64,000 nucleotides of DNA from an uncultured Anaerolineae bacterium. Lineage in GTDB: Bacteria; Chloroflexota; Anaerolineae; Aggregatilineales; Phototrophicaceae. Made by a program: the position numbers and the translations under genes. Location of the stretch: NCBI GenBank assembly GCA_937995825.1, contig CALKJO010000003.1, positions 1 through 64,000 of the forward strand. Reading direction: 5' to 3'. This document shows positions 43,007-50,513 of the stretch, piece by piece (position 1 is the stretch's first letter; each line of letters starts with the position of its first letter). The notes under the pieces were generated by a model, which saw only the letters and a program-made list of their open reading frames with translations, did no database searches and was not told where the DNA came from.

Positions 43007-43765
43007 GTGCCAACGCCTCACATGAGCCGATCAGAGCGGCTGTTGCGTATTGAACAGATTCTAGCGCGGAGTGTTCGCGGGCTGCGCGCGGTTGAGCTTG
43101 CGGCGGCATGTGGTGTTGACCGGCGGACAGTTTATCGCGACCTTGCGCTGCTTTCTGAACTAGGGGTTCCGATTTACCAGAAAGATGGGCGCTTCAGCAT
43201 TGATCGCGCGGCGTATCGTGCGCCGCTGCGTCTGAGCTGTGATGAAGCGCTGCAGCTGCTGCTTGCAGCAGCTGCGATTGCTCGGCACGCGCATGTGCGC
43301 AATGCGTCGCTTGAGTCGGCGCTGCGCCATCTGACTCATATCGTGCCGGAGTCTATAGCCGTTCATGCAGGCTACCGAAGTGAAAGAGAGCAGACTGAGC
43401 AAAGCGGCGACCGGGGATACTTTAATCAACTGACTAAAGCGTGGGTTGAACACCGCCGTGTCAAACTGCGCTATTGGACGCGGGATCGTGATAACCCTGA
43501 GCGACGAACATTTCTTGAAATGGAAATGCTCATCTATTTTGTGGAGCTGATGCCGCATGGCACGGTCTATATTGTCGGCAAGGATAGTCAGATGGGCAAG
43601 ATTCGCACACTCAAGATGAGCCGGATCGTTGATTTGGAAGTCTTGAATACCACTTATGAAATCCCACTGCACTTTGATCCCCGTCCTTATTTAGCGCAAC
43701 TGCGCGAAGATTCGGAATCGACCTCAACACAGCGGCAAGACGCAGTAGCAGGCGATCAGGGCTGA
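43007..43765 (+). CDS. WYL-domain transcriptional regulator
   Basis: 252 residues from GTG 43007 with AAGGA upstream; ATG 43022 is an alternative. An N-terminal DeoR-type helix-turn-helix (SRSERLLRIEQILARSVRGL; CGVDRRTVYRDLALLSELGV) is followed by a WYL-type domain from about residue 120 (KAWVEHRRVKLRYWTRD), with the WYL-like core YFVELMPHGTVYIVG. WYL regulators sense ligands, often nucleic acids or nucleotides, and control stress or defence genes. It starts 72 bases after the kinase gene and 52 bases before the DUF2207 gene on the same strand, so it may regulate the cassette downstream. Confidence 0.83.
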   Translation: MPTPHMSRSERLLRIEQILARSVRGLRAVELAAACGVDRRTVYRDLALLSELGVPIYQKDGRFSIDRAAYRAPLRLSCDEALQLLLAAAAIARHAHVRNASLESALRHLTHIVPESIAVHAGYRSEREQTEQSGDRGYFNQLTKAWVEHRRVKLRYWTRDRDNPERRTFLEMEMLIYFVELMPHGTVYIVGKDSQMGKIRTLKMSRIVDLEVLNTTYEIPLHFDPRPYLAQLREDSESTSTQRQDAVAGDQG

Positions 43766-43817
43766 GCATTCGACTGCGCAAATTGAGCGTGATTGACCGG
43801 AAACCAAAGGGGAGGAT

Positions 43818-45722
43818 ATGCGACGCACGGTACTGCTGCTGACTATCGCACTGCTGATTGTCACAGGAAGTGTTCAAGCACAAGACCGCAGCCTGATATG
43901 GGATGAATGGAATGTTCGGATTGACGCGGTCGATGTGCGGCAGAACCAATTCAATGTCACTGAAAGCCATCGCGTCACCTTCAATGGGGCATTCCGGTTT
44001 GGGAACTTCACGCTGCCCGCAGCGCGCCTTGAACGGGTCGATCAAATGCGCGTCACCGTGAATGGGGTGCGTTTGGAGCAGGATTGTAATCGCTCGCTTC
44101 CTGGTTCATTCTGCTTGAGTCGAAGCGCGGGCGATTATAATATGACCTATTACTTTCCCAATCAAGTCACCGATGAAACCCTTTCGATTGAGATTGCATA
44201 CCGTGTCACTGGTGCGCTGCGCGTGTATGAGGGTGGGGATCAGCTCTGGTGGGATGCCATTCCTGAGGAACATTTTGGATTTCCCATTCGCAGCGCGCAA
44301 GTGACAGTCGTCTTGCCTGAAAATCTTGCGCCCCGCGAGGGCATTGACCCCATCGAGACTTATGGAGCAACCGGTGAGATCGAGGTCAAGGACAATATTA
44401 TTACTGCGACCGCAGTGAACGGGTTGACTGGCAGCGAGGGCTTCAGCATCCGCGTGCAGTACCCACACACTCCGGAGGCGCGTCAGTCGAGCTGGCAGGT
44501 GGCTTTTGATGAACGGCGCAGTTTTGAAGAAAATGTGCTTCCGCTGGTCAACATTGGAACATGCCTGCTGTCGATGCTGATCGGCTTGGGTGTGCCGCTG
44601 GCGGTGTATGCGCGCTGGCGGACGCATGGACGCGATCCGGAAGTTGGACCCGTGCCGCAGTATCTGGCGGAGCTTCCTTCAAAGCTGCCTCCGGGAGTTG
44701 TGGGGGCGTTGTTGGATGAAACAGCCGATATGCGGGATATTCTGGCAACGCTGATCGACCTGGCGCGTCGTGGTTATCTGGTGATTGAGGAAGAAAAGGC
44801 GGCAAGTTTATTTGGGACGATTCAGAACAGTGAATTCGTCTTTAAGCGCACCGATAAGCAGCTGGATGATCTACGCGAATATGAACGGATTCTGCTGCGT
44901 GGGGTGTTCAGCGGCAAAAGCCTTGAAAAGAGACTGAGCGATCTGCGCAACAAGTTCTACACCGTGGTTCCGCGTATTCAGTCAGCGCTTTATAAGGAGC
45001 TTGTCCGAGAGAATTTGTTTGCGATCAATCCTGAAACAACCCGTTCACGTTGGTCAACCTTGGGCGTGTTTTTGTTGATCGTTGGTATCGCAGGTTTTTT
45101 TGTTACCAGCCCGCTGTCTGATTTCAGTGTGCTGATCTTTGCCATCCCTATCGCCATCATTATCGCTGCGTTTTCCGTTTTCATTGCTGGGATGGCGATG
45201 AGTTCAAAAACGCCGCACGGCGCGCTGGAGGCGGCGCGTTGGAATGCCTTCAGGGAATACCTGAGAAATTTAGAGAAATACAGCGATTTGGAGGCAGCAT
45301 CTTCCAAGTTTGATGAATTTCTACCGTATGCGATTGCGTTTGGCTTAGACAGGGTCTGGATGCGGCGCTTCCGACAAGTGGAGTCAGTGCCGATGCCGCC
45401 TTGGTACATCCCAATCTATCGCGGCGGCTATTACCGCCGTTACACTCCTGGTACGCCGTTCAATCCGGCTGAAACCGCCGGAGGACTGCCCGGCGATCTA
45501 GCGCGTGCTGGCGGGTCTGGACTGGACAGCATGTCAGGCGGTTTATCGCGCGGTCTGGAGTCGCTGTCCACCGGGCTTTCGACGATGCTGAATTCAGCAT
45601 CGAGCATTTTCACCAGTGTTCCGCAGTCCTCTAGCAGCGGACGGTGGGGTGGAGGGAGCTTCAGCGGAGGCGGATTCAGCGGCGGGGGCGGAAGCGGCGG
45701 CGGCTCGCGCGGATTCGGTTGA
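43818..45722 (+). CDS. DUF2207-family membrane protein
   Basis: 634 residues; a signal peptide (MRRTVLLLTIALLIVTGSVQ) and GGGGAGG upstream of the ATG. The outer N-terminal part (about residues 25-235) is beta-rich and typical of DUF2207 (WDEWNVRIDAVDVRQNQFNV). One helix (CLLSMLIGLGVPLAVYA) is followed by a cytoplasmic region with winged-helix-like LLDETADMRDILATLIDLAR, a pair of helices (LGVFLLIVGIAGFF and SVLIFAIPIAIIIAAFSVFI), and a C-terminal Gly/Ser tail GGGFSGGGGSGGGSRGFG. Function is unknown in the family. Its place with SPFH and zinc-ribbon proteins suggests an envelope-stress role. Confidence 0.85.
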   Translation: MRRTVLLLTIALLIVTGSVQAQDRSLIWDEWNVRIDAVDVRQNQFNVTESHRVTFNGAFRFGNFTLPAARLERVDQMRVTVNGVRLEQDCNRSLPGSFCLSRSAGDYNMTYYFPNQVTDETLSIEIAYRVTGALRVYEGGDQLWWDAIPEEHFGFPIRSAQVTVVLPENLAPREGIDPIETYGATGEIEVKDNIITATAVNGLTGSEGFSIRVQYPHTPEARQSSWQVAFDERRSFEENVLPLVNIGTCLLSMLIGLGVPLAVYARWRTHGRDPEVGPVPQYLAELPSKLPPGVVGALLDETADMRDILATLIDLARRGYLVIEEEKAASLFGTIQNSEFVFKRTDKQLDDLREYERILLRGVFSGKSLEKRLSDLRNKFYTVVPRIQSALYKELVRENLFAINPETTRSRWSTLGVFLLIVGIAGFFVTSPLSDFSVLIFAIPIAIIIAAFSVFIAGMAMSSKTPHGALEAARWNAFREYLRNLEKYSDLEAASSKFDEFLPYAIAFGLDRVWMRRFRQVESVPMPPWYIPIYRGGYYRRYTPGTPFNPAETAGGLPGDLARAGGSGLDSMSGGLSRGLESLSTGLSTMLNSASSIFTSVPQSSSSGRWGGGSFSGGGFSGGGGSGGGSRGFG

Positions 45723-45739
45723 TTGGGCGAAGGAAAACG

Positions 45740-46258
45740 ATGAACGGAAATCGCTTGATTGGGGTTATTCTGACGGTTGCAGGCATTGGCGTCGCGCTGA
45801 TTGCGGGGCTGTGGCTAGCATCGCAGGTCGCTTCGGGAGCGCTCACCAGTGGCGGAGCGCTCGTTGGCGCGGGGCTGGCGTTTATTCCCGTCGCGTTGTT
45901 AACCGGTTTTGGTATTTATCTATTCGTCCAAGGCGGCAGAGAAGCGCAGCAGGAATCAGTGATGCAGAAGCAGCGCCAGCTTCTTGACATTGTGAAAAGC
46001 CGTGGACAGGTGACGATCTCGAATCTGGCAATTGAATTGGGCATCAGCGCTGACACAGTCAAGAATATGGTGCATGAGCTGGTAGGGCTTCAGGTCTTCA
46101 GTGGTTACGTCAATTGGAATGATGGCATGCTGTATTCTGCTGAAGCCGCTAACCTGCGTGCTCTGGACAGATGCAAAAACTGCGGCGGCGAGATCGTGCT
46201 GGCTGGTAAAGGCATTGTGGTCTGCAAGTACTGCGGCACTGAATATTTCCTGTCTTGA
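45740..46258 (+). CDS. membrane winged-helix protein with zinc ribbon
   Basis: 172 residues from ATG 45740 with AGGAAAACG upstream. Two membrane helices (LIGVILTVAGIGVALIAGLW and ALVGAGLAFIPVALLTGFGI) are followed by a winged helix (LLDIVKSRGQVTISNLAIEL; ISADTVKNMVHELVGL) and a C-terminal zinc ribbon CKNCGG-x10-CKYCG. Such a layout resembles YdjG-like proteins of Psp-type systems, but the sequence match was not tested. It could bind nucleic acid or a partner protein at the membrane. It starts 17 bases after the DUF2207 gene. Confidence 0.7.
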   Translation: MNGNRLIGVILTVAGIGVALIAGLWLASQVASGALTSGGALVGAGLAFIPVALLTGFGIYLFVQGGREAQQESVMQKQRQLLDIVKSRGQVTISNLAIELGISADTVKNMVHELVGLQVFSGYVNWNDGMLYSAEAANLRALDRCKNCGGEIVLAGKGIVVCKYCGTEYFLS

Positions 46259-46326
46259 CTAGGCGTCTGCAGCTGTCTTGAGGCGGTTTTCGCATTCAGT
46301 ATTAGGAACAGAAGGAGCAGGAGGCT

Positions 46327-46863
46327 ATGTCTGAGCTGTATGATCGCATTGTCAACCAGCGCGGAGACTTTGAAAAGCTGCTTGCGCGCATTCCCGGATT
46401 TCGCGGCTATCTCGAAGAGGCGACCCGCCGCACGGCAGATCGGATGCTGCGCGACTACATTGCGGATTTGCTCGCTCGGCGGATTCAGCGGCTGATTCAG
46501 CTTGAGCGCAGGCTGCTGGATAAAGGCAGCATGGCGCTCATGAGCCAGACTGCGAGCGTCAAGCTCAAGCTGCAAACGTATCGGGATCGGGTCGCAGCCG
46601 CGATGCCCGGCTATTCGGCTTTCGACTCCGCCGTTAAGATCGATCAAAACGCGCTTGAAATGATTTACAGCTTCGATGAAGCGCTGATCAACTATGTGGA
46701 TCGAATCGACTCCGCCCTAGATGCGCTGGAGAACGCAATACAGGATAACGCCGGTATCGATGCGGCGATTGCCGATATTGATGCTTTATCAGTTGAGGCA
46801 AATGAGGCTTTTTCGCTGCGTGAGCAGGTTCTGACCAATCTTGATCAGTCCTTGATGAAATAG
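46327..46863 (+). CDS. helical cytoplasmic protein of the SPFH cassette
   Basis: 178 residues, predicted all alpha-helical (SELYDRIVNQRGDFEKLLAR; RRIQRLIQLERRLLDKG; ENAIQDNAGIDAAIADIDA), with no signal peptide or membrane helix. A strong SD (GGAGCAGGAGG) precedes the ATG. It occupies the position that PspA has in YdjFGHI-type clusters but has no PspA signature, so common ancestry is only a guess. It lies 12 bases before the SPFH gene. It may be an adaptor or scaffold for that protein. Confidence 0.6.
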   Translation: MSELYDRIVNQRGDFEKLLARIPGFRGYLEEATRRTADRMLRDYIADLLARRIQRLIQLERRLLDKGSMALMSQTASVKLKLQTYRDRVAAAMPGYSAFDSAVKIDQNALEMIYSFDEALINYVDRIDSALDALENAIQDNAGIDAAIADIDALSVEANEAFSLREQVLTNLDQSLMK

Positions 46864-46875
46864 GGGCTAAATACA

Positions 46876-47964
46876 ATGGCGCGAATTATTGATGTAGTCG
46901 ATCATACCTTTGTCAGCGCGGATGAGCTGGTTTGGAAAGAGCCGCAGCGTGGGCAGGGCGATTTCAGGATGGGGTCGCAGGTGATCGTCTCGGAGTCACA
47001 GGCGGCGGTCTTTTTCCGGGCGGGACAGGCGTTGGATGTGCTGAGGCCTGGACGGCACACGCTGTCAACGGCGAATCTGCCGATCCTCTCCAATCTAATC
47101 GGCTTGGCGACCAGCGGACGCACGCCGTTCACGGCGGAACTTTACTTCGTCAACATGCGCGATATGCCGCAGGTGGGCTGGGGAACGAATCCGCCAATTG
47201 TCTTAGAAACGCCTGGGCGTGGGCTAGGCGTGGTGCTGCTTATTGGTCATGGCGTGATCGATATTGGCGTAGATGATCCGGGTCGGTTCGTCAAACAGTA
47301 TGCGGTCAATTTGCCGGTTGTGCGGCTGAGCGACATTAAGGACCGGATTCAGGCGATGCTGCTTGCCGAGATCGCTGAACTGTTGATGAAGTCAGGCGCG
47401 CAGAGCGTCGGCGATGTCAACCGCATCCTCAGCGACCTGAAGGGCGCGATGCTGGTCAAGCTGAACGAGAAATTCCAGGCGTTGGGGATGCGGATCAAAG
47501 CGTTTGAAGCCGTGCCGTTCCGCGCTAAAGAGAACGTCACTATCGACGAACTGCGCGATTACCTCACAGATTTTGATGCGTTCGAACGTCTGCGGCGTTT
47601 AGAGATTGCAGAAAAAGCGGCGTCCAACGAAGGTATGGGTGGGGCGCTGGCTGGCGCAGGGATCGGTCTCGGTGTTGGACAAACGCTCGGCGCTGCAATG
47701 AACCCAGATATGAATGCGCTTCAGCAGCAGTTGGCGCAGCAGCAGATGATGATGCAGCAGTTGATGATGAAAATGATGCAGGAGAGGGGAGGCGATGCCT
47801 CAGCTGCGCCGCCAACAGCCGCTCCGCCGGCTCCACAGACGAAGGCGGAAATACAAGCTTTGATCGATGCGCTGGATGTGCGGTTTGCGAATGGCGAGAT
47901 CAGCGAAGCAGCCTATAACCGGCTCATCGAGAAATGGCAGCAGCGCCTTCAGGAGCTTGCCTGA
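46876..47964 (+). CDS. SPFH/Band 7 (YdjI-like) protein with C-terminal SHOCT domain
   Basis: 362 residues. Residues about 20-245 form an SPFH/Band 7 domain of the YdjI type: GDFRMGSQVIVSESQAAVFF, LSTANLPILSNLIGL, ELYFVNMRDMPQVGWGT and KENVTIDELRDYLTDFDAFE. A Gly-rich helix (GGALAGAGIGLGVGQTLGAA) and a Gln/Met-rich stretch follow. The C-terminal 40 residues form a SHOCT domain (KAEIQALIDALDVRFANGEI). No membrane helix is at the N terminus, so it may attach to lipid through the Gly-rich helix or through partners. SPFH proteins build membrane microdomains or respond to envelope stress. It is the last gene of the cassette. Confidence 0.85.
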   Translation: MARIIDVVDHTFVSADELVWKEPQRGQGDFRMGSQVIVSESQAAVFFRAGQALDVLRPGRHTLSTANLPILSNLIGLATSGRTPFTAELYFVNMRDMPQVGWGTNPPIVLETPGRGLGVVLLIGHGVIDIGVDDPGRFVKQYAVNLPVVRLSDIKDRIQAMLLAEIAELLMKSGAQSVGDVNRILSDLKGAMLVKLNEKFQALGMRIKAFEAVPFRAKENVTIDELRDYLTDFDAFERLRRLEIAEKAASNEGMGGALAGAGIGLGVGQTLGAAMNPDMNALQQQLAQQQMMMQQLMMKMMQERGGDASAAPPTAAPPAPQTKAEIQALIDALDVRFANGEISEAAYNRLIEKWQQRLQELA

Positions 47965-47971
47965 ACGATGC

Positions 47972-49792
47972 TCAAGGGATGATCAGGGAACCAATCTTGA
48001 AGAAGTCAGCGCTTTGCGAGTCGGTCACCGTAAGGCGCTGATTGGTTGTCGGATCATACCATCCCACAACCACCTGATACTCACCGGCGGGGAGATTTGC
48101 GACCGGAAGCGCATAGACATCGCGAAACGGCGCGGTCTCCCAAGTGGTCGAGTTCAAGCGCCCGTCCTGTGGGAACTGGTCATCCTGTGACCAAAGCGGC
48201 GTTCCGCTTGCGGGATTGATCCCGCCGATTACATGGACGAAAACCTTGAGCGGAGTGCCTGTTGTCCGCAGCGGAAGCCACTCCAGCCATACCGTCTGTT
48301 CGCCGCTAGGTTCGGTTAAGGGAGCAATCGTTGCGCCCAGCAGCGCAGCTATCTCATCGAACTGTGCTAGGGGTTGCTCTGAGTTCGACTCGACCTGCCA
48401 TGAAGCAAACTGACGGATGGGCAGGGTGTCGATCTGAGTCATTCGGAGTAATTGTGCATGGTCATTAAACCAACGCAACACAACAGTCCCATTATCCCAT
48501 CCAAGAGGAGGATCAGTGACAACCCAGATACTTGAATAAGTTCGAAGCGCCGCTTCTGCAATCGAGGTGATCTCCGATTCGGCTTGGTATGGGTTGGCTG
48601 GAAGGCGAATTGCTGTTCCTGGCACATGATGCTCTTCAAAATAGAATGTAAAAGCCTCATCAGCCGCAGACTGGATCACCAGATCACTCGAATGCGTCCT
48701 CTCTCGCAGGTATGATGCTAAAGCCCGCCAATCGGGTGATTTCGTATAGTCATTAAAAACACCAAAATAACCAAACAAACTAAAGATCGAAAACACCATC
48801 ACCAAAGATCCAAAAATCAAGCCAGACCAGCCAAGTCTCGGTACAGCAATCACAACTAACAAGACCAACGACACAGAAACAGGCAGCACATAACGAGGCG
48901 TAAAGACACTCAGCCGAGTAGACACTACCGCCAAACAAATCAAAGGAACAAAAAACCAAAACAGCAGGAGAATATACTGCTTACGCCAATTTAACAAAAG
49001 CATAACTAAGCAAAGAAGAGAGATAAATAGAGCAGCAGTTACAACAGAGAAAGTATCACCAAACATCAGCGTAGGAACAAACCACGTTAACAGAAGCTCA
49101 GGCTCAAAAGTAAGCGCTGTTCCAGTATAACCGCTGCTGAACAACAACCGCCCTTGAAGAAACCATACCGCCAAGCAAACACCAAGGATAACCTGTACCA
49201 CAAACCAGAGGCGAAGCACACGAGATGAATACGGATAAATAATCAAAACATACAGATTAAGTGCGACAACAAAAAATAGCTCCAAATAGTACAGATAACA
49301 TGCAGTCAAAGCTGAACCAAGATATACAATCCCGCGCCGCCACGTCTGACGGTCAAGAAAACGCAGCCCAGCAGCTAGCGCAATAGGCGAAGCAGCGCCC
49401 CAGAGAGCATAATTCCGAGCATCCTGAGCGTGCCATATCTGAAAAGGATGAACCGCCCACAGAAGCGCCGCAATACAGCCGCCATATCTACCCGCAAAAC
49501 GCCTACCCAACAAATAAAGCGCAGGAATACCTATGACATTAAACAGAGCAGGCAAATACCGAACAATATATTCATCCGATCCAACAAGAAGCGACCACAT
49601 ACGATAAATGGCGTATGCTAGAGGTGGCTGAGGATCAACTGTGGCGATCTGATCAAGTGTTTGCGAAAGCGGCTCACGCATCCAATGGATAACAGTAAAA
49701 GCTTCGTCGCCGCGTAGAGAGAAGCGGTTGATGTCATGAATTCGGAGTATAAAACCAACCGCAATCAGAGTTAGTAAAAATAGTCTAGGCAC
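47972..49792 (-). CDS. GT39-like membrane glycosyltransferase
   Basis: 606 residues. About twelve membrane helices and the N-terminal motif FSLRGDEAFTVIHW (the Asp-Glu pair that binds the lipid-sugar donor in ArnT/PMT enzymes), followed by DPQPPLAYAIYRMW. The C-terminal ~200 residues are soluble and outside. Members transfer mannose or other sugars from polyprenyl phosphate to proteins or lipids. The first two-thirds of the gene (about 48.7-49.7 kb) is clearly more AT-rich than its neighbours: 26/60 and 22/60 G+C in two counted lines. This suggests recent transfer or different selection. It overlaps the next gene by eight bases. Confidence 0.82.
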   Translation of the reverse strand: MPRLFLLTLIAVGFILRIHDINRFSLRGDEAFTVIHWMREPLSQTLDQIATVDPQPPLAYAIYRMWSLLVGSDEYIVRYLPALFNVIGIPALYLLGRRFAGRYGGCIAALLWAVHPFQIWHAQDARNYALWGAASPIALAAGLRFLDRQTWRRGIVYLGSALTACYLYYLELFFVVALNLYVLIIYPYSSRVLRLWFVVQVILGVCLAVWFLQGRLLFSSGYTGTALTFEPELLLTWFVPTLMFGDTFSVVTAALFISLLCLVMLLLNWRKQYILLLFWFFVPLICLAVVSTRLSVFTPRYVLPVSVSLVLLVVIAVPRLGWSGLIFGSLVMVFSIFSLFGYFGVFNDYTKSPDWRALASYLRERTHSSDLVIQSAADEAFTFYFEEHHVPGTAIRLPANPYQAESEITSIAEAALRTYSSIWVVTDPPLGWDNGTVVLRWFNDHAQLLRMTQIDTLPIRQFASWQVESNSEQPLAQFDEIAALLGATIAPLTEPSGEQTVWLEWLPLRTTGTPLKVFVHVIGGINPASGTPLWSQDDQFPQDGRLNSTTWETAPFRDVYALPVANLPAGEYQVVVGWYDPTTNQRLTVTDSQSADFFKIGSLIIP

Positions 49793-50513
49793 GATCTAGA
49801 AACTGCTGCTCAAATTCCTGAATTTGCTGCGGGGACAAAGAAACCTGCGACGCCTTGCCAACATCGCGAAGATAGGCTTTCAGATTTGGAGTCCGCTTGA
49901 TATCAGGATACAGCACGGGAACGGAGGGATTGATCATCTCTACCTCAGCACGAGGATCGACGAAAACGATCAGCGGCTGCACAATTACGCCTGTCGCCAC
50001 CCGGTCAACCAGCGCCTGAACATGTGCAGCGGCGGCGCGCGCATCCTCAGATGGATTACCGATACTGTCAAAACGAAATAGGCTAAAAAACCGACCAAGC
50101 GCGCTGCGATGTGTTTTCCATTTGTCCCCCTCAACGGTAAAGCGCCCATCCTGAAAGCGCGTAACTATCGCATAGACCCCCTGAGGCGTGATCAGCACAT
50201 GACGAGCAGGGAAAAGATAATAATTGTACAACACACTTTTATTGCTGATGCCTTTAAGACCATCCCGAATCACGTTTTCAGGGCGCGGGACACGCACCCA
50301 TAGATTAGTCATGCGCACAGAAATCATCGTCGCAACAAATGCTAACGGTAAAACCAACGCAGGAACTAGGAATGGCAGCAGATCATCATCCTGACCAACT
50401 CGCACATTAGACACCAACAAGCCGATAATCAGCAGTCCGAAACTCGCAAAAAATAAATACTGAGCGATCTGGCGGTTCCGCCGCGCCAGGCGCACGTTCG
50501 TTTCAACCCGCAT
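49785..50513 (-). CDS. membrane protein with NERD-like domain lacking catalytic residues
   Basis: 242 residues. Two membrane helices (AQYLFFASFGLLIIGLLVS and FLVPALVLPLAFVATMISV) are followed by a domain similar to NERD nuclease-like folds: HVLITPQGVYAIVTRFQDG and KWKTHRSALGRFF. The acidic and Lys residues of active NERD domains (E-x-K) are replaced (V-T-R), so nuclease activity is doubtful. It overlaps the GT39 gene and may act with it. The family call is tentative. Confidence 0.5.
   Translation of the reverse strand: MRVETNVRLARRNRQIAQYLFFASFGLLIIGLLVSNVRVGQDDDLLPFLVPALVLPLAFVATMISVRMTNLWVRVPRPENVIRDGLKGISNKSVLYNYYLFPARHVLITPQGVYAIVTRFQDGRFTVEGDKWKTHRSALGRFFSLFRFDSIGNPSEDARAAAAHVQALVDRVATGVIVQPLIVFVDPRAEVEMINPSVPVLYPDIKRTPNLKAYLRDVGKASQVSLSPQQIQEFEQQFLDRA

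Follow-up and report, generated by a model that had tools for sequence, protein, structure and literature searches.

An operon of four genes, conserved across the bacterial class Anaerolineae, probably (we would put it at about 60%) encodes a membrane-surveillance or scaffolding module of the phage shock protein (Psp) type, with a soluble helical protein, termed HEL here, as its core adaptor and PspA as an optional member. The operon was studied in the window, that is, the whole stretch of 64,000 nucleotides (contig CALKJO010000003.1, positions 1 to 64,000) from an uncultured Anaerolineae bacterium. Its genes code for a DUF2207 membrane protein, a protein with two transmembrane (TM) helices, a winged helix and a zinc ribbon (2TM-wH-ZnR, shortened below to wH-ZnR), HEL and an SPFH protein of the YdjI family; a WYL-domain regulator lies upstream (Table 1). 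Gene order, conservation, fusions, PspA adjacency, domain content and predicted folds form the basis of this reading.

Recurrence of the Four-Gene Operon

The neighbourhoods of 60 loci from the class were scored with profiles seeded from the window. In 54 of them, SPFH was located 3' of HEL and read in the same direction, the median gap between the two being 38.5 bases (52 class loci without PspA). The order DUF2207, wH-ZnR, HEL, SPFH is complete in 27 of the 60. Two further class loci have this order plus PspA, with wH-ZnR sitting further off in one, and another two are interrupted by the contig end. Through a scan of GTDB, from which the best 80 of 556 related stretches were taken, it was observed that SPFH adjoins HEL in 77 of the 80. 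All four genes are present in 10 of 12 loci from the window's own order. HEL and SPFH are also carried by cultured Anaerolineae such as Longilinea arvoryzae (L151) and Levilinea saccharolytica (L192). The operon recurs over dozens of class families, and its outer flanks are common to close relatives only. Given the adjacency in 54/60 loci and the changing flanks, the four-gene arrangement is far beyond chance.

A first-pass annotation of the window had described a five-gene cassette resembling the YdjFGHI-type modules and had named recurrence in the same order as its own test; the counts for SPFH after HEL and for the full order (54/60 and 27/60) answer it clearly. The four-gene core is indeed recurrent and YdjFGHI-like, while the WYL gene does not belong to it, as described below. 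The wH-ZnR profile, searched in 100 class genomes, was found in 75, and most of the strong matches lie directly beside HEL; in at least eight class genomes (e.g. G043, G003 and G010) wH-ZnR is placed away from it.

Adjacency to PspA and Fusion to DUF4178

The likeness to PspA-linked modules, which the first-pass annotation had noted, is directly backed by PspA adjacency in eight loci. Seven belong to the class (L088, L090, L094-L098) and hold DUF2207, wH-ZnR, HEL fused to DUF4178, PspA and SPFH. The eighth, L216 from another class, holds wH-ZnR, HEL, PspA and SPFH, its HEL being longer and without a Pfam-recognised tail. In two other loci, L217 and L105, a two-TM segment homologous to that of wH-ZnR is joined to a HEL-like sequence and DUF4178 in one protein. 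DUF2207 lies just upstream of both fusion genes, and PspA lies just downstream of the one in L105. The HEL match in L217 is firm (E 3e-8 against all open reading frames (ORFs) of that set). The fusion of the wH-ZnR anchor to HEL and DUF4178 in these proteins links it to HEL; taken together, the fusions and the adjacency suggest that anchor, HEL, DUF4178 and PspA form one physical chain. A published survey of Psp systems has DUF4178 as a protein of its own in PspA operons (PMC11237479). PspA itself was found in 119 of 199 class genomes. The genome of the window carries two divergent PspA-like genes elsewhere and none in the window operon.

HEL, the Constant Helical Component

Of 199 genomes sampled evenly across the class, 159 gave a HEL match in a profile search, almost always a single one. 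In a draw of 301 genomes from the phylum, 36 of the 38 class members listed had it, as did only 9 genomes from the other classes. The best 80 of the 556 GTDB stretches all come from records of Anaerolineae, Chloroflexi/Chloroflexota or related groups. Shared contigs among these relatives (e.g. L045 = L114) would place the window in class Anaerolineae. HEL is the most constant helical component of the module and its core.

The protein has no TM segment and no Pfam family, PF04012 included. Its alignment shows two conserved motifs, IPGxxGYKEKExRREAD and YGYAGxFDAV. The AlphaFold2 model (predicted local distance difference test score 87.6) comprises a short N-terminal segment followed by a four-helix bundle, and the invariant residues P23, Y28, R35, D38 and R42 are predicted to lie where the first long helix begins. 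A PDB fold search with this model returned nothing significant: the top entries were IncA and designed bundles, within the helical background, and CdvB ranked low. The score against IncA (VIA Z 13.8) is inside the background stated for helical bundles. The NCBIfam model NF047596 (LIMLP_15305), however distant, matches each of the 46 aligned HEL proteins with an E value of 0.01 or lower (best E 3e-17). As the model carries a Leptospira name, HEL should have relatives outside the phylum. The window protein scores 38.5 bits against an equivalog cut-off of 210 bits; by sequence, HEL is a distant homologue of NF047596 and not an equivalog. The Leptospira paper naming LIMLP_15305 just lists it beside a non-coding RNA.

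PspA folds as a long hairpin. That the helical partner here differs from PspA, as was claimed at first pass, agrees with the absence of a PF04012 match and with the model, a compact bundle and not a long hairpin. A comparison of the HEL profile with that of the operonic PspA gave an hhalign probability of 1%. HEL as a divergent PspA was rejected on this comparison and on the co-occurrence of the two in one operon. A related proposal is that HEL replaces PspA in function, as a bundle that itself polymerises on the membrane or remodels it, which would make the module an analogue free of PspA. Its constancy, its presence in genomes without PspA and its position next to SPFH, where a PspA partner would be expected, speak for this. 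The hhalign result and the compact bundle predicted for HEL speak against it, and because eight operons hold HEL and PspA side by side, HEL is no simple stand-in. We consider such a replacement unlikely.

The Anchored Winged Helix

Hydropathy, alignment and model agree on the wH-ZnR protein as it was first annotated. In the window, the TM helices are at residues 7-25 and 46-64 and the zinc ribbon reads CKNC...CKYC; the model has a pair of long TM helices together with the winged helix and the zinc ribbon. The Pfam PCI family matches 17 of 37 members (best E 5e-7), the window protein reaching 20.5 bits against a cut-off of 22. The predicted winged helix also matches COP9 and DDRGK1 structures (Foldseek E 1e-3 to 1e-2; VIA Z up to 10.4 over 73 residues). 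The profile and fold matches are each modest on their own. PCI and DDRGK1 winged helices are protein-interaction modules.

It could be argued that the operon encodes a membrane-anchored one-component transcription regulator, in which DUF2207 senses, the winged helix with its zinc ribbon or the helix-turn-helix (HTH) tail of some SPFH proteins binds DNA, WYL adds control, with HEL and SPFH as regulated partners. A membrane anchor does carry the winged helix and zinc ribbon, HTH_17 occurs among the SPFH tails, and the bacterial regulators NiaR and TM1602 are among the PDB fold matches of the winged helix. Against this, the recognition helix and wing have a mildly acidic character, with a mean net charge of about -1 that is conserved in 37 proteins, and the top profile and fold matches are PCI/DDRGK interaction domains. 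Moreover, L105 and L217 swap the wH-ZnR part for HEL and DUF4178, yet keep the anchor. A transcription factor is therefore disfavoured, since the winged helix resembles PCI/DDRGK and is not basic, and we regard this explanation as distinctly improbable. The sequence and the model favour wH-ZnR as an adaptor for protein interaction rather than DNA reading; this fits the reported link of winged-helix proteins to ESCRT-III/PspA (PMC10936438; ESCRT, endosomal sorting complex required for transport). Another study noted HTH genes next to pspA and took them to be regulators (PMC9239133).

The SPFH Protein and Its Exchangeable Tails

PF13421 is matched by 38/38 aligned SPFH orthologues, while their C-terminal tails vary. 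The window protein, which lacks any CxxC and hence the C-terminal zinc ribbon of the YdjI type, has a SHOCT-like tail instead. The SHOCT family PF09851 scores E 0.044 and 14 bits there, below the gathering score of 27 bits, and it reaches E 0.01 or better in 3 of the 38 orthologues, among which a GEISE..Y motif is conserved. A C-terminal double zinc ribbon was seen in 13 of the 38. By a simple motif count over 56 proteins, the tails are a SHOCT-like hairpin in 21, a double zinc ribbon in 14 and HTH_17 in 12, with 9 unassigned; examples are L045, L076 and L078 for the zinc ribbon and L068 and L072 for the excisionase-type HTH. The annotated SHOCT ending was accordingly borne out as a conserved SHOCT-like motif, but it is sub-threshold and one of three alternative tails. 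As the tails swap on one SPFH scaffold, the tail may select the partner or output, as the exchange suggests.

Downstream of SPFH in L095 (11393-11680) and L096 (6698-6955), a short free-standing ORF matches the SHOCT-like C-terminus of the SPFH profile, as though the tail had become its own gene.

SPFH proteins often organise proteases or microdomains. The operon might thus encode a scaffold for the quality control or assembly of membrane proteins, with an SPFH protein like HflK/C or prohibitin, unrelated to envelope stress. The winged helix, whose fold matches are of the PCI/DDRGK type, could serve such a scaffold as well, since eukaryotic domains of this type scaffold degradation and endoplasmic reticulum (ER)-phagy complexes. 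The neighbourhood, however, is without a recurring protease or chaperone gene, whereas PspA recurs, and this explanation appears quite improbable to us.

The WYL Regulator, a Lineage-Specific Accessory

The inclusion of the WYL regulator in the module did not hold, as it is absent from all fetched loci outside the window's order. In the window, L034, L200, L201 and L203, all of one family, the WYL gene is upstream of the operon and co-directional with it, L034 having one gene between. In L207 and L209, from another family of the same order, it is divergently transcribed and has a C-terminal WCX domain. A profile built from these seven members found no other WYL at E 0.001 in any fetched locus. 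WYL as a core gene was rejected, being a neighbourhood member only within the window's own order; it is a lineage-specific accessory and plausibly a regulator in that order. The window WYL protein is without WCX, and its ORF stops where the WCX of the L207 and L209 relatives would start.

An anti-phage defence system is very improbable: phage induces the Psp response and defence loci often contain WYL regulators (PADLOC model matches), but WYL is not conserved here, PADLOC gives no defence family in the other window proteins beyond weak HTH matches, the distribution in the class is near-universal and single-copy, and no relative was found on viral contigs or plasmids. Carriage of the module by phage or plasmid was likewise looked for among viral contigs and plasmids, and none was found.

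The Locus in the Window and Its Surroundings

The five adjacent same-strand ORFs are separated by gaps of 52, 17, 68 and 12 bases; coordinates and spacing were reproduced exactly as first annotated. Pfam agrees with the WYL, DUF2207 and SPFH identities given earlier, and the alignment clearly shows the winged helix and zinc ribbon. The DUF2207 protein has a signal-like start and, by hydropathy, TM segments at residues 246-264, 415-433 and 438-456. Its predicted layout is an exported N-terminal domain, a TM segment, a cytoplasmic DUF2207_C with two more TM segments, and a Gly-rich tail ending in GFG; the Gly-rich tail is kept across loci. The Pfam scan of the five window proteins gave no TPM domain (as in YdjH), DUF2207 being matched instead. 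Scans for promoters and terminators gave results no better than chance or too weak to inform.

Table 1. Genes and domains of the window operon and the regulator upstream of it.
Feature	Positions	Strand	Evidence
WYL-domain regulator (HTH_11 + WYL)	43007-43765	+	PF13280 E 4e-9; HTH_11 E 3e-8
DUF2207 membrane protein	43818-45722	+	PF09972 E 3e-9; PF20990 E 1e-44; both over cut-off
2TM-wH-ZnR: two-TM anchor, PCI/DDRGK-like winged helix, C-terminal zinc ribbon	45740-46258	+	Alignment, PCI matches, model, hydropathy
HEL, soluble predicted four-helix bundle, 178 aa	46327-46863	+	Alignment, model, NF047596 relative
SPFH protein, PF13421 (YdjI) family	46876-47964	+	PF13421 E 4.8e-33, over cut-off
SHOCT-like C-terminal tail of SPFH protein, variable module	47845-47961	+	Sub-threshold PF09851; motif in orthologues

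Convergent to the operon, at 47972-50513, are genes for a PMT_2 glycosyltransferase-like membrane protein and a borderline NERD-domain protein; the pair holds the same place in the near relatives L032-L034, L198 and L200. Several local variations were also recorded. A YccF-domain membrane protein (Pfam match from L058) is inserted between wH-ZnR and HEL, directly upstream of HEL, in L050, L058, L066, L077 and L089. DUF2207 is tandemly duplicated upstream of the operon in L044, L087, L131, L180-L182 and L205. After SPFH in one genome (L087, 10482-12398) comes a fusion of Polyketide_cyc2 (START-like), DUF5939 and guanylate cyclase. In one family only, f29 (L047, L051, L056 and L061), HEL lies beside xanthine-dehydrogenase-like oxidoreductase and aldolase-like genes.

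Comparison with Known Systems

The closest parallels are with three described systems. Like pspA-ydjGHI of B. subtilis, the operon has a PF13421 SPFH protein, with the zinc-ribbon tail in 13/38 orthologues, and co-encodes two membrane proteins, one with a zinc ribbon and one with a low-complexity tail; PspA is shared in the eight loci. YdjI itself has a low-complexity region and a C-terminal zinc finger (PMC8581546). It differs from that system in that DUF2207 and 2TM-wH-ZnR take the place of the TPM and ZnR-NTF2 proteins as membrane partners, HEL is an extra component, PspA is usually absent and the SPFH tail is variable. DUF4178 occurs together with PspA, as in the polyamine-linked CesT/Tir-PspA-DUF4178-DUF350 Psp operons (PMC11237479), but it is fused to HEL here, and no spermine synthase or DUF350 was recognised in the neighbourhood. 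The archaeal Meth_adaptin ESCRT loci combine a winged helix, an SPFH-coiled coil-zinc ribbon protein and ESCRT-III (PMC10936438). The present loci similarly hold a winged helix, an SPFH protein with a zinc ribbon and sometimes a member of the ESCRT-III superfamily (here PspA); unlike the archaeal ones, they are bacterial, their winged helix is membrane-anchored, and no Vps4 ATPase or adaptin appendage was seen.

The literature searched has PspA with band-7, TPM, CesT/Tir and DUF4178 partners. DUF2207 with SPFH, and the combination of DUF2207, the wH-ZnR anchor and HEL, were not found in the open-licence literature, in line with the first-pass remark that no publication was known, though such absence is no proof.

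Proposed Function

From the above, we infer physical contacts, a stress signal, a membrane function and WYL control, which may fit together as follows. The DUF2207 protein, with its outside domain and cytoplasmic part, and the two-TM wH-ZnR would form a membrane platform and probably act as the sensor. In the cytoplasm, the PCI-like winged helix with its zinc ribbon would dock the soluble HEL bundle, and HEL would recruit or organise the oligomeric SPFH protein at the stressed membrane. PspA, where present, may join via the HEL-fused DUF4178 as the membrane-remodelling effector. In the greater part of the class, where the operon has no PspA, HEL and SPFH would work on their own or together with PspA-like proteins from other loci. 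An upstream WYL regulator would be an addition made in the window's order. A precedent for such a platform is B. subtilis, where YdjG/YdjH are needed for the membrane localisation of YdjI and PspA (PMC8581546).

Certain observations count against a Psp-type module. None of the tests made here shows DUF2207 and wH-ZnR to be homologous to YdjH (TPM) and YdjG. Several genomes with HEL are without PspA (e.g. G001, G003, G009, G010 and G027). Most of these operons also lack it, which leaves the Psp label to depend on a minority of loci and on domain similarity. The HEL match in the L105 fusion is weak (E 2e-4 in a three-sequence search), and HEL occurs without adjoining SPFH in family f29 and one other sampled genome.

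PspA belongs to the ESCRT-III superfamily. A bolder version of the Psp-type reading, possible but doubtful, would make HEL a new core family of Psp/ESCRT-like modules, in which the anchored PCI-type winged helix, an adaptor in the manner of ESCRT-II, passes HEL and, optionally, PspA on to an SPFH scaffold whose tails are exchangeable; most Anaerolineae would then repair their membrane without an operonic PspA.

If the Psp-type reading is right, envelope stress would gain a link to a module found almost throughout a large and poorly studied class, and HEL, whose family lacks a Pfam model, would have a role open to testing. The anchored PCI-like winged helix, together with SPFH and sometimes PspA, bears on the idea that ESCRT-III acquired its winged-helix and SPFH partners long ago, and the operon offers a bacterial set of parts for testing the age of these partnerships.

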